A stretch of DNA of 56,769 nt from Humidesulfovibrio sp. (lineage in GTDB: Bacteria; Desulfobacterota; Desulfovibrionia; Desulfovibrionales; Desulfovibrionaceae), in contig NZ_JAVHLD010000017.1 in NCBI RefSeq assembly GCF_031082295.1, positions 1 to 56,769 of the forward strand, in the 5' to 3' direction. Position 1 is the stretch's first letter. Each line of letters starts with the position of its first letter. Shown here piece after piece: positions 40,019 through 45,443 of the stretch. Made by a program: the position numbers and the translations under genes. The notes under the pieces are model-generated. The model did not search any database and was not told the origin of the DNA. It saw only the letters and a program-made list of their open reading frames with translations.

Positions 40019-42229
40019 ATGGAAACCCTCGTGCAAGAGCACAGCATGACCATCGGCCTTTCCGGCAACCCCAACTGCGGCAAGACCACCATGTTCAACG
40101 CCCTGACCGGTTCCCACCAGCATGTGGGCAACTGGCCGGGCGTCACCGTGGTGACCAAGATGGGCCACGCCCGCGTCGGCTCCGGCGCGACCTCGCAGGA
40201 AGTGGACATCGTGGACCTGCCCGGCACCTATTCCCTCACCGCCTATTCCGAGGAAGAGAAGGCAGCGCGGAACTTCCTCATCAACACCCGGCCTGCGGCG
40301 GTCATCGACGTGATGAACGCGGACGCCCTGGAGCGCAACCTGTACCTGGCCGTGCAGATTCTTGAGCTGGGCGTGCCGCTGGTGCTGGCGCTGAACATGA
40401 TGGACGAGGTGCGCAAGCACGGCAAGGACATCGACACGGCCCTTCTGACCAAACTTACCGGCTGCCCCGCCATCGAGACCGTGGCGCGTTCGGGCAAGGG
40501 CAAGCAGGAGCTGCTCGACGCGGCCTTCCTGCTCGCCAAGGACAGAAACGGCCGCTGGGATCCGCTTGTCATTTCCTACGGGCCAGACCTGGACCCGGTG
40601 CTGGCGGAGATGGAAGCCATCATCACCAAGGCCGGGGAACTGGTCGGGCAGGTGCCGCCAAGATGGGTGGGCATCAAGATCCTTGAGGGCGACGAATCCA
40701 TCATCAACCGCTGCCGCGAGGCCAATCCCGAGGTGGCGGCGCGGCTGGAGGCGCTGGTGGCGAAGGTTTCCGAACACCTGGGCCGGACCTTGCGCGCCAG
40801 CCCCGACGCCATCATCGCCGACTACCGCTACGGCTACATAACCGGCATCGCCCGGCAGGTGGTGCGCTACCCAAAGGTGGACGCCGAGCGCATCCGCCTT
40901 TCCGACCGCATGGACCAGGTGCTGACCCACCAGTTGGCAGGGCCGCTGGTCATGGCGCTCGTCATCTACCTTGTCTACATCCTGACCTTCAAGGCCGGGG
41001 CGCTGCCCATGGAGATGGTCCAAGACGCCTTCGCCTGGCTGGGCAAAACCGCCGAGGCGGCCATGCCCGACGGACTCCTGCGCTCGCTTGTGGTGTCCGG
41101 CGTCATCGCCGGCGTGGGCGGGGTGCTTGGCTTCGTGCCGCTCATCATGATCATGTTCTTCCTCATCTCCGCGCTGGAGGACTCCGGCTACGTGGCGCGC
41201 ATGGCCTACATGCTCGACCGCGTGTTCCGCATCTTCGGCCTGCACGGCACCAGCGTGCTGCCCTTCATCGTTGCGGGCGGCATCGCTGGCGGCTGCGCCG
41301 TGCCCGGCGTCATGGCCACCCGCGCGCTCAGAAGCCCCAAGGAAAAGCTGGCCACCCTGCTCGTCACCCCGTTCATGACCTGCGGAGCCAAGGTGCCAGT
41401 GTTCCTCATGCTGGCCGCGGCCTTCTTCCCAGGCTCAGAGGCCGGGGTCATGTCCCTGGTGACGCTCACGGCCTGGGTGGCGGCCCTGCTGGTGGCAAAA
41501 CTGCTGCGCTCCACCGTGGTCAAGGGCGAAAGCACGCCCTTTGTCATGGAGCTGCCGCCCTACCGCATGCCCACCCTCTCCGGCCTGTGCATCCACACCT
41601 GGGAGCGCTCCTGGGACTACATGCGCAAGGCCGGCACCACCATCCTGGCCATCTCCGTGCTGCTCTGGGCGGCCATGACCTTCCCCGGCCTGCCCGCCGA
41701 CCGCGCCACAGCCTTCGACGCCCGCGAGGCGGCGGTCCAGGAGCAGATCGACGCGGCCAAGGCCCAGGGCCAGGAAGCCTCGGCGCTTGAGGAAGCCCTC
41801 AAGCAGGTGGGCGCGGACCGGTCCGAGGAGGCGCTCAAGGCCTCCGCAGCCGGACGCGCCGGCGTGGCTTTGGAATCCGTGAGCCACTTGGCGGGCTTCA
41901 ACTGGCGCGTGAACATCGCGCTGGTGGGCGGGCTGGCGGCCAAGGAGGTCATCGTCTCCACCCTGGGCACGGCCTACTCCCTGGGCGAAATCGACACGGA
42001 GGACGCCGAACCGTTGTCGAGGCTCATGGCTGCGGATCCGAGCTTCCCGCGCTCCGCCGCCCTGGCGCTGATCATCTTCGTCATCCTGTACGCGCCCTGC
42101 TCCGTAACCATCGTGACCATGGCCCGCGAGTCCAGCTGGAAGTGGGCCGTCTTCGCCATGACCTTCAACACCTCGCTGGCTTTCGTGGCCGCCGTGGCGG
42201 TGTTCCAAACCGCGCGGCTGTTCAGCTAG
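40019..42229 (+). CDS. feoB: Ferrous iron transport protein B
   Basis: This 736-residue GTP-gated ferrous iron transporter has an N-terminal G domain with G1 GNPNCGKTT, a GTWP-like switch I, G3 DLPGTYSL and G4 NMMD. An alpha-helical GDI-like segment follows to about residue 275. The membrane part has two Gate domains, with GVLGFVPLIMIMFFLISALEDSGY and the Cys-containing VPVFLMLAAAFF / MTCGAK segments. The length is usual. An internal ATG at residue 10 is a second possible start. A terminator follows within 30 bp. Confidence 0.96.
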   Translation: METLVQEHSMTIGLSGNPNCGKTTMFNALTGSHQHVGNWPGVTVVTKMGHARVGSGATSQEVDIVDLPGTYSLTAYSEEEKAARNFLINTRPAAVIDVMNADALERNLYLAVQILELGVPLVLALNMMDEVRKHGKDIDTALLTKLTGCPAIETVARSGKGKQELLDAAFLLAKDRNGRWDPLVISYGPDLDPVLAEMEAIITKAGELVGQVPPRWVGIKILEGDESIINRCREANPEVAARLEALVAKVSEHLGRTLRASPDAIIADYRYGYITGIARQVVRYPKVDAERIRLSDRMDQVLTHQLAGPLVMALVIYLVYILTFKAGALPMEMVQDAFAWLGKTAEAAMPDGLLRSLVVSGVIAGVGGVLGFVPLIMIMFFLISALEDSGYVARMAYMLDRVFRIFGLHGTSVLPFIVAGGIAGGCAVPGVMATRALRSPKEKLATLLVTPFMTCGAKVPVFLMLAAAFFPGSEAGVMSLVTLTAWVAALLVAKLLRSTVVKGESTPFVMELPPYRMPTLSGLCIHTWERSWDYMRKAGTTILAISVLLWAAMTFPGLPADRATAFDAREAAVQEQIDAAKAQGQEASALEEALKQVGADRSEEALKASAAGRAGVALESVSHLAGFNWRVNIALVGGLAAKEVIVSTLGTAYSLGEIDTEDAEPLSRLMAADPSFPRSAALALIIFVILYAPCSVTIVTMARESSWKWAVFAMTFNTSLAFVAAVAVFQTARLFS

Positions 42230-43404: not shown

Positions 43405-43791
43405 ATGTCACCGGAACCGAAGACCGTCCAGACCGCCAACGCTCCCGCCGCCATCGGCCCCTATTCCCAGGCCGTGACCTATGGCGGACTGGTGTTCCTA
43501 AGCGGCCAGCTCGGCATCATTCCGGCCACCGGGATCATCCCGGAGGACTTCGCCATCCAGACCAGGCAGGCCCTGGACAACGTGCGCGCCGTGGTGGAGA
43601 CCGCCGGCTCAAGCCTTGAGCGCGTGCTCTCCGTCGATGTCTTCCTTATCGACATGGGCCGCTTTGGCGAGTTCAACGAAATTTACAGCACCTACTTCAC
43701 CAGCCACAAGCCCGCCCGGGCCGCCGTGGCCGTGGCCGCGCTGCCGCGCGAGGCCCAGGTGGAAGTGCGGGTGGTGGCGGCCCTCCCCTAG
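43405..43791 (+). CDS. ridA: RidA family enamine/imine deaminase
   Basis: This 128-residue member of the YjgF/YER057c/UK114 family hydrolyses reactive enamines from PLP enzymes. It has the motifs AIGPYSQAV, VFLSGQLG and the conserved Arg and Glu region ARAAVAVAALPREAQVEV. The catalytic Arg is the one in KPARAAVAV. The trimeric cytoplasmic form is expected. AAGGAG precedes the ATG. It follows the Gate-domain gene closely and ends at a shared hairpin. Confidence 0.93.
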   Translation: MSPEPKTVQTANAPAAIGPYSQAVTYGGLVFLSGQLGIIPATGIIPEDFAIQTRQALDNVRAVVETAGSSLERVLSVDVFLIDMGRFGEFNEIYSTYFTSHKPARAAVAVAALPREAQVEVRVVAALP

Positions 43792-43869: not shown

Positions 43870-44223
43870 CTAGGAGCAGCCGCAGCCGCCAGAGCCGCAA
43901 CCGCCGCCGGAGTCACCGCTGCCGCAGCCGCCGGAACCGCAACCGCCAGAGCCGCCGCCGAGCTGATTCTCGGACTCCACGGAGAAGCCGTACTCGCCCG
44001 CGTCGATGGCGATCTTGCCCGCCGAGGCGAGCAGAGCCTTCTCCGCCAGCAGCGTGTAACCCAGGCATTCAACGGTTTCGTCGCCGTCGCGGGGCTCGTC
44101 CAGGGCCAAGGACAGCTTGGGTCCGCAGCAGCCCCCTGCCAGGAAGATGCGCAGGGGGGATTTCTCCTTGTCCGCAAAATAGCCGTCGAGCTGGTCGCGG
44201 GCGGCTTCGCTCAATGTGATCAT
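43870..44223 (-). CDS. IscA/HesB-like protein with Gly/Ser/Cys-rich tail
   Basis: The protein has 117 residues. Residues 1-85 match the IscA/HesB iron-sulfur or iron-binding fold, with the Cys pair GGCCGPKL (C32, C33) and LDEPRDGDE. The last 30 residues are almost only Gly, Ser and Cys (GGCGSGGCGSG type), with five Cys. The tail may bind metal or an Fe-S cluster in place of the C-terminal CGC motif of IscA. It is a paralogue of the Sec-containing gene at 44358-44696, and the N-terminal 20 residues are nearly the same. AAGGAGC precedes the ATG. Confidence 0.82.
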   Translation of the reverse strand: MITLSEAARDQLDGYFADKEKSPLRIFLAGGCCGPKLSLALDEPRDGDETVECLGYTLLAEKALLASAGKIAIDAGEYGFSVESENQLGGGSGGCGSGGCGSGDSGGGCGSGGCGCS

Positions 44224-44300: not shown

Positions 44301-44333
44301 AAAAAAAGGGCGGCGCTCCGTGGAACGCCGCCC
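44301..44333 (-). terminator. Rho-independent terminator of the HesB-like selenoprotein gene
   Basis: On the minus strand GGGCGGCG pairs with CGCCGCCC (44326-44333 and 44308-44315) around a 10-nt loop and is followed by seven T (A run 44301-44307). Confidence 0.9.
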
Positions 44334-44357
44334 TTGATCGTCGTGGGGATTGTGAGC

Positions 44358-44696
44358 TTAGCAGGAACAGCCGCCGGAGGAGGCTCCCCCGCTGCCGCAG
44401 CTGCCGCCGCATCCGCCGCCGCCCATGTTCATGGGATTTTCCGAATCGACAGAGAAGCCGTAGCTCGTCATGTCGATGCGGATGGCGCCGGTTTTCTCTC
44501 CGAGGGCCCGCTCCACTACAAAGCTGTAGCCCATCACGTCGTAGGTGTCGTCGTTCTCACGCGGCTCATCCAGAGCCAGCGACAGTCTCGGGCCGCTTCA
44601 GCCCCCGGACGCCATAAAGACGCGAATCGGGGTCTTCTCTTTGTCCGCAAAGTACCCGTCGAGCTGGGTCTTGGCGGCTTCAGTCAGTTCAACCAT
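44358..44696 (-). CDS. HesB/IscA-like selenoprotein (UGA at 44598-44600 read as Sec)
   Basis: Reading through one UGA gives a 112-residue IscA/HesB-like protein. Before the UGA, residues 1-32 closely match the paralogue at 43870-44223 (LTEAAKTQLDGYFADKEK). Sec33 stands where that paralogue has the first conserved Cys: SGG-Sec-SGPRLSLALDEP against GGCCGPKLSLALDEP. Homology continues to a Gly/Ser/Cys-rich tail ending SGGCSC and a TAA. A SECIS hairpin follows the UGA. Conserved coding on both sides rules out a simple nonsense mutation. HesB-like selenoproteins are a known prokaryotic Sec family. AAGGAGG lies 7 bp before the ATG. It has its own promoter and terminator. Confidence 0.93.
44560..44600 (-). 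promoter_or_regulatory. Selenocysteine UGA and SECIS hairpin in the HesB-like gene
   Basis: On the minus strand, 20 nt after the UGA, GGCTC-TGGAT-GAGCC (44563-44577) folds with a 5-nt loop bearing GG. It extends by U-G, G-C and C-G with one bulge. The apical GGCTCTGG is identical to that of fdnG at 26266-26273. Confidence 0.85.
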
Positions 44697-44729
44697 CACA
44701 AGCCTCCTTGAACGTTGGTGGAAGGAGGA

Positions 44730-44758
44730 TAGATAATGTCGCCGTCCGGCTTTGTCAA
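44730..44758 (-). promoter_or_regulatory. Promoter of the HesB-like selenoprotein gene
   Basis: On the minus strand a perfect TTGACA (44753-44758) is 17 bp from TATCTA (44730-44735). The leader would be about 27 nt and contains the AAGGAGG site. Confidence 0.5.
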
Positions 44759-44876: not shown

Positions 44877-45443
44877 ATGAGCACCAAGGATCTCATCCTA
44901 GCCACCGCCAAGGACATGATCTCCGAGGTCGGCTTCCATAAGATGACCACGGCCAATCTGGCCAAGCGAGCGGACATCTCGGAGGGCACGATTTACCGCC
45001 ACTTCGAGAGCAAGGACGACATCCTCCAGCACATCCTGGACGACTTCGACGAGAAGTACCAGTCCCTCTCCGAGACCTGCCGCGCACGCATGGACAAGGG
45101 CACGCTGTCGCTTGACGACCTGCTCGGGAGCCACTTCACCTTCCTCGACGCCAACGCGGCGGACATCAAGATCGTGCTCGGCACCTACAGCATTCTGGAC
45201 ATCACCCGCCGGTCCATGGCCCGGTTCATCGAGCGCATGCGCGCCCTGTTCGAGGACTTCCTGGCCCACGGCCACAAGGACGGCACCCTGATCGAAGTCC
45301 CGCTGAAGCCCACCGGCCTGATTCTGGCCAACATGTTCTTCGGGCTCATGCGCATCAAGCTCTACTGGCCGGAGATCGATGATTTCTCCAAGGAAGCCGT
45401 GGAGTTCTGCCGCCGCAGCCTGACCCAGGCCGGAGCCAAGTAA
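44877..45443 (+). CDS. TetR family transcriptional regulator
   Basis: The protein has 188 residues. The N-terminal TetR helix-turn-helix is clear (TTANLAKRADISEGTIYRHFESKDDIL, about 22-48 with the HTH core). The C-terminal ligand domain, about 60-188, is of the AcrR/FadR type with no named subfamily that I recognise. The ATG at 44877 has GAGGA upstream; an ATG four codons earlier is less likely. Its stop overlaps the pyrR start (TAATG), so they are co-translated. Targets are unknown; the divergent selenoprotein promoter is near. Confidence 0.88.
   Translation: MSTKDLILATAKDMISEVGFHKMTTANLAKRADISEGTIYRHFESKDDILQHILDDFDEKYQSLSETCRARMDKGTLSLDDLLGSHFTFLDANAADIKIVLGTYSILDITRRSMARFIERMRALFEDFLAHGHKDGTLIEVPLKPTGLILANMFFGLMRIKLYWPEIDDFSKEAVEFCRRSLTQAGAK

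Follow-up and report, generated by a model that had tools for sequence, protein, structure and literature searches.

Results

A HesB/IscA-like gene interrupted by an in-frame UGA

The locus described here raises the question of whether a short HesB/IscA-like gene of Humidesulfovibrio sp., interrupted by an in-frame UGA, encodes a selenocysteine (Sec) protein and, if so, what that protein does beside an adjacent paralogue carrying only Cys. The window, that is, the whole stretch of DNA analyzed, spans 56,769 nt of contig NZ_JAVHLD010000017.1. Under the standard code the gene stops after 32 residues, whereas readthrough of the UGA at 44600-44598 yields 112 residues, as the first-pass annotation had pointed out. 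The elements of the gene are as follows.

44358..44696, minus strand: Sec-containing HesB/IscA-like gene, 112 residues on readthrough, Sec33, Cys/Gly/Ser-rich tail
44598..44600, minus strand: in-frame UGA, codon 33, read as selenocysteine, falling in a single alignment column across 56/56 Sec forms
44563..44577, minus strand: apical stem-loop of a bacterial SECIS, GGCUC-UGGAU-GAGCC, starting 20 nt after the UGA
44703..44709, minus strand: ribosome binding site AAGGAGG, read from the sequence and present in 14/14 genus sequences
44730..44758, minus strand: sigma-70-like promoter TTGACA-N17-TATCTA, identified by eye in an alignment of 14 genus sequences

Read from 44696 to 44358 on the minus strand, the product is M...GGU(33)SGPRLSLALDEP..., with a single in-frame UGA and a Gly-, Ser- and Cys-rich tail. 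Its assignment to an IscA/HesB-like family was borne out by the NF038090 (IscA_HesB_Se) model, which, with Sec scored as Cys here and in all model searches, gave 114.6 bits for the Sec gene and 93.3 bits for the all-Cys paralogue (43870..44223), both above the 85-bit cut-off. The two proteins are 60% identical across 89 aligned positions and, in agreement with the initial reading, U33 stands opposite the first Cys of the CCGP stretch of the paralogue and a Ser opposite the second. At an E-value of 0.01, these are the only two NF038090 matches in the 3.45-Mb genome (99.99% complete).

Conservation of the UGA column

We examined the family in an order-level set of 59 genomes, including that of the window, of which 56 contain NF038090 matches (G003, G017 and G032 have none). 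After dropping one chance match (E about 100) from the 104 domains taken, the alignment of the remaining 103 placed the UGA in one column in all 56 Sec forms, and the other 47 copies all present a Cys codon at that position (TGC in 38, TGT in 9). No second UGA was found within any of the 103 aligned domains. The Sec form occurs in 54 of the 59 genomes, two (G020 and G022) harbor only Cys forms, and 38 present both. The expectation that the UGA aligns only with Cys holds for the order-level set (47/47); in a wider set of 80 named loci, the site is UGA in 69 of 143 domains, Cys in 61 and neither of the two in 13. These 13 were excluded from the Sec/Cys counts of the named set, whose loci overlap partly with the order-level genomes, so that the two counts are not independent. 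The nearest named relatives, at 12 loci, are 82-94% identical; their records include the labels Humidesulfovibrio, Desulfovibrio and Desulfocurvus, from which we conclude that the host is a Humidesulfovibrio-like bacterium of the Desulfovibrionaceae. In a phylum sample of 297 genomes, 160 contain NF038090 matches. A candidate double-Sec protein in this sample (G281) was rejected, as it has one UGA in the domain and its frame ends at a second TGA just past the tail. A search for plasmid-borne relatives returned only weak matches from Priestia (5 records, the best being 34% identical across 65% of the query).

The members with neither Sec nor Cys (L183, L184, L179, L188 and L191; L146, L147, L149, L150, L152 and L154; L187 and L212) all belong to loci that also have a Sec copy, and seven of these loci have a Cys copy as well. 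Among the nine read to their end, four of Nitratidesulfovibrio type are devoid of the Cys tail, and those of Solidesulfovibrio and Mailhella type retain the tail Cys. These members resemble DsrR, a Cys-poor relative of IscA; a DsrR structure (2k4z) is among the Foldseek hits of the Sec protein model.

The 14 Sec genes identified within the genus share the UGA column without exception. Stops at random positions, or frameshifts, among close relatives had been named as grounds for refuting the selenoprotein reading; they were looked for, and the opposite was observed: besides the invariant UGA, pooled dN/dS across the 14 genes (91 pairs) amounts to 0.113 upstream of the UGA and 0.158 downstream of the SECIS codons. 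Median dS is 0.20 at the SECIS codons, against 0.66 and 0.51 for the other two parts, as expected of a doubly constrained stretch.

A SECIS hairpin distinguishes Sec from Cys forms

The SECIS-like hairpin noted 3' of the UGA was substantiated by comparison, its inner four pairs and GG loop being present in 56/56 Sec forms versus 1/47 Cys forms. Its folding energy is only moderately unusual (z of -1.57 and -2.15) and Rfam gave no match at gathering score within the window; it is the contrast between Sec and Cys forms, not folding energy, that makes the SECIS convincing. Since both forms encode nearly identical residues at the hairpin, codon choice provides a test. The Ala codon at +8 is GCT in 55 of 56 Sec forms versus 6 of 37 Cys forms with Ala, the Leu codon at +9 is CTG in 56/56 versus 28/44, the Asp codon at +10 is GAT in 48/55 versus 10/45, and the Glu codon at +11 is GAG in 55/55 versus 22/37; the sequences compared are related rather than independent, so that P values carry little weight for these counts. 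The sole GCT exception, in G025, combines GCC with an opposing GGG; this compensatory change preserves the pairing and turns the conserved Glu into Gly. The same pattern is seen in 30 further loci (ten from the phylum search and 20 chosen among the matches listed, mostly with UGA), where the four-pair stem and GG loop are present in 28/28 Sec forms, 25 of them from other families of the phylum, and the full four pairs in 0/10 Cys forms. Across the 80 named loci, stem and GG loop are found in 69/69 Sec forms versus 1/61 Cys forms.

Selenocysteine machinery

The genome of the window encodes the components of Sec insertion, with matches to tRNA-Sec (80.9 bits), SelA (584.1), SelB (384.6) and SelD (327.4). 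The gene for this SelD (G000:C3:61675-62604, L100) has an in-frame TGA of its own, which suggests that SelD is probably a selenoprotein too. tRNA-Sec was detected in 54 of the 59 order-level genomes. G020 and G022 (100% and 95% complete) have neither a tRNA-Sec match nor a Sec form, and three genomes with a Sec gene and no tRNA-Sec match (G006, G010 and G049) are all 81-84% complete. tRNA-Sec was found in 264 of the 297 genomes of the phylum sample, and at least four genomes with a UGA form (G104, G114, G194 and G225) are among 20 listed without a tRNA-Sec match, which makes the link between UGA form and tRNA-Sec strong, not perfect. The sole family member of G022 (L015) is a Cys form that stands beside the G025 Sec form in the tree (91/85) and still carries GCT CTG at the hairpin; it is possible that Sec was lost in this genome together with its machinery.

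With the conserved UGA column, the SECIS, the Sec machinery and purifying selection past the UGA, the first-pass claim is upheld: 44358-44696 almost certainly encodes a true HesB/IscA-like selenoprotein.

Organization of the Sec and Cys genes

The surroundings of the gene comprise the following elements.

43870..44223, minus strand: HesB/IscA-like paralogue of 117 residues with Cys only, CC standing opposite Sec
44306..44335, minus strand: predicted intrinsic terminator separating the Sec gene from the Cys gene, from a terminator scan, with similar hairpins seen by eye in relatives
44877..45443, plus strand: TetR-family regulator, transcribed divergently to the Sec gene (neighbor annotation)
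43405..43791, plus strand: RidA-like gene (Endoribonuclease L-PSP) running towards the Cys gene in convergent orientation, a neighbor outside the system

The TTGACA-N17-TATCTA promoter lies 33 nt upstream of the Sec gene start; a promoter scan did not report it, and TTGACA is present in 14/14 genus sequences, with the second hexamer variable in at least two. The predicted terminator at 44335-44306 fits the earlier proposal of separate transcription units. The scan proves nothing by itself, since shuffled sequence gave a mean of 1.1 such sites; by eye, most of the 14 sequences from the genus show a hairpin resembling 44335-44306 at the corresponding site. The conserved promoter of the Sec gene and the terminator-like hairpin between the genes make it likely that the two are transcribed separately. 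A regulatory site common to the Sec and Cys genes was rejected, as visual inspection of the aligned upstream regions revealed the conserved promoter of the Sec gene and no further motif in common.

In the window, the gene for the FeoB ferrous iron transporter (40019-42229) is followed by a Gate-domain gene, the RidA-like gene and the HesB pair. Clustering of neighbors at 75 loci identified no gene in more than 8 genomes; the most common, in 8 genomes each, are a divergent phosphoribosyltransferase (the Pribosyltran gene of the window) and one unannotated cluster. The neighborhood was consequently rejected as a functional clue for want of a widely recurrent neighbor.

Evolution of the Sec/Cys pair

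Of the 15 genomes of the genus, 14 have the family, always with the Sec and Cys forms next to each other; G003 (87% complete) lacks it. As far as the retrieved stretches reach, both forms occur at 48 of the 80 named loci, the Sec form alone at 21 and the Cys form alone at 11. A tree of the 103 domains, built on only 89 columns, requires 20 Sec/Cys changes, and well-supported branches force 10 of these. Sec and Cys copies from the same genome are strongly supported sisters in G016, G024, G029 and G030, and in the genus of the window they form sister clades with moderate support (fork 83/81). Twins are not always adjacent: the copies of G029 are 68 kb apart and those of G030 lie on different contigs. 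Taken together, Sec/Cys pairs seem to be widespread and to have arisen repeatedly by duplication with a Sec/Cys change, a pattern that gene conversion between copies could mimic.

The direction of change appears to be fixed for only a few branches of the tree. The Cys copies of G024 (L007) and G030 (L040) retain an intact four-pair stem, in G024 together with the GG loop, which points to a Sec-to-Cys direction and makes these stems a likely relic of a recent change. A remnant SECIS in a Cys HesB of Desulfitobacterium hafniense was described in 2006 (PMC1794560), and a table in the same study already has two Sec-to-Cys changes for HesB-like proteins. A 2026 review describes Sec-to-Cys changes as rare and as documented mainly for FdhA and SelD (PMC13188914); the tree of this one family requires many Sec/Cys changes (20, at least 10 forced), for most of which either direction is possible.

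Relationship to A-type iron-sulfur carriers

Models other than NF038090 scored the pair below their cut-offs. TIGR01911 (HesB_rel_seleno, cut-off 66.35) gave 26.1 and 25.3 bits for the Sec and Cys genes, TIGR00049 gave 36.6 bits (cut-off 58.8) and Pfam Fe-S_biosyn 21.8 (cut-off 26.3). The AlphaFold model of the Sec protein, obtained with 19 sequences, has a mean pLDDT of 87.6, with a value of 46 in the tail, which is effectively unpredicted. As judged from this predicted model only, the top Foldseek hits are IscA and SufA (1x0g, E-value 4.6e-7; 1s98, TM-scores 0.75/0.76). IscA binds its cluster through three Cys; phmmer alignments place U33 on the first ligand Cys, of the GGCSG type, of IscA relatives and a tail Cys on the C-terminal CGC. 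At least three tail Cys are present in 54 of 56 Sec forms.

Scans with TIGR00049 found no match over cut-off in any of the 59 order-level genomes, as compared to 8 of 14 control genomes that were positive, and Pfam Fe-S_biosyn gave no match in the genome of the window. Sub-threshold TIGR00049 matches occur in 34 of the 59 genomes, and all 50 among the matches listed coincide with NF038090 places. The lack of matches over cut-off and the coincidence of the sub-threshold places suggest that, as far as scans with these two models go, the Sec/Cys pair may constitute the only A-type-like carriers in these genomes, and the order seems to be without classic A-type iron-sulfur carriers.

Proposed function and alternative readings

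In the mechanism that we propose, SelB bound to the SECIS stem-loop just past the UGA would bring Sec-tRNA-Sec to the ribosome, which would insert Sec33, and the readthrough product would be a small protein of IscA fold. Sec33 would replace the first of the three metal- or cluster-binding cysteines of IscA, the flexible Cys-rich tail would supply the remaining ligands, and the carrier would probably be oligomeric, with the selenolate acting as a ligand or a redox switch. The adjacent Cys paralogue might take on related tasks as an isoform transcribed on its own, perhaps under selenium shortage. At the level of comparison, the recoding, the SECIS, the Sec machinery, the fold relationship and the conserved pair are established. 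That the protein binds a cluster and works as an A-type carrier of iron-sulfur clusters (or of iron or another metal), with Sec substituting for the first cluster-binding Cys, is a reading to which we give even chances, and a selenium-dependent switch between the Sec and Cys isoforms is a tentative proposal, more doubtful than the carrier role itself.

Several observations count against a carrier role, namely the sub-cut-off Pfam and TIGR00049 scores, the uninformative neighbors, the unpredicted tail and an unpublished observation, cited for Methanococcus maripaludis, that a hesB mutant still fixes nitrogen (PMC11097638). The same selenoprotein might instead form, through Sec33 and the tail cysteines, a selenenylsulfide or polysulfide redox switch or reductase center. 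Most uncharacterized prokaryotic selenoproteins are thought likely to be redox proteins (PMC13188914), and the frequency of Cys-rich tails would suit such a role; the best fold matches, however, are IscA and SufA and include no thiol oxidoreductase, and Sec falls on a cluster-ligand Cys of IscA, so that we regard this option as unlikely. Alternatively, the selenolate and Cys-rich tail could bind metals or metalloids, as a buffer or chaperone. The tails themselves and the FeoB gene of the window, with FeoB matches close to the Sec/Cys pair in nine same-genus loci, speak for this idea, but extra-genus loci, with flanks of mostly 1.5-3 kb, yielded no FeoB match and no neighbor recurs widely, and it appears quite improbable. 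The carrier reading therefore ranks best, ahead of both the redox switch and the metal binder.

Two further explanations deny that Sec is inserted at all. That the UGA is a true stop in a pseudogene, or a sequencing error, with only a 32-residue peptide produced, follows the standard reading of the gene, yet it is scarcely credible given the UGA in 14/14 same-genus Sec genes, the dN/dS of 0.158 after it and the SECIS in 56/56 Sec forms. Suppression of the UGA to a residue other than Sec, such as Trp, is an extremely improbable alternative: low-level near-cognate readthrough is always possible and we found no evidence in favor of it here, while the 47 other order-level copies all have Cys at the site, and the Sec gene has its SECIS and a full Sec machinery in its genome. 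Both explanations were rejected on conservation, codon choice and machinery.

A broader reading that joins these results, which we consider speculative and on the unlikely side, is that in the Desulfovibrionales the Sec/Cys family replaced the classic A-type iron-sulfur carriers, with the Sec form as the default. Repeated duplication with a Sec-to-Cys change would have produced the Cys twins, and with them isoform pairs that are selenium-dependent or divide the labor, and the third copy with neither Sec nor Cys in some genera would be a possible structural partner subunit.

Comparison with known systems

The type of protein is already known. Catalogues have included HesB-like selenoproteins from at least 2005-2006 onward (PMC1242214, PMC1794560), the 2006 list naming those of Desulfovibrio vulgaris and D. 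desulfuricans (PMC1794560), and the first-pass remark on a known family without a known function agrees with this literature, in which the function in M. maripaludis is described as "not clear". A search of titles and abstract openings found no description of a tandem HesB Sec/Cys pair. The protein encoded here shares with the NF038090 HesB-like selenoproteins the UxGP motif given in the table of the 2026 review (PMC13188914), and no difference was seen at the protein level; the tandem Cys twin is a property of the locus. It reaches only 26.1 bits against TIGR01911, the model listed for HesB-like selenoproteins. The selenoprotein of M. maripaludis, identified by mutagenesis and 75Se labelling (PMC11097638), is likewise HesB-like with Sec, and differs in its archaeal host; archaeal SECIS are reported mostly in untranslated regions (PMC9312934), unlike the in-gene hairpin described here. 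With the A-type carriers IscA, SufA and ErpA, the Sec protein shares the fold and the position of the first ligand Cys, and it differs from them in scoring below the TIGR00049, SufA and ErpA cut-offs, in having Sec for Cys and in its Gly/Ser/Cys-rich tail. Three points are added to these known systems: Sec/Cys twins recur, some copies have neither residue, and classic carriers seem to be missing from the order. A natural tandem Sec/Cys pair, in sulfate reducers seemingly devoid of such carriers, offers a clean setting for the contribution of selenium to an IscA-type site.
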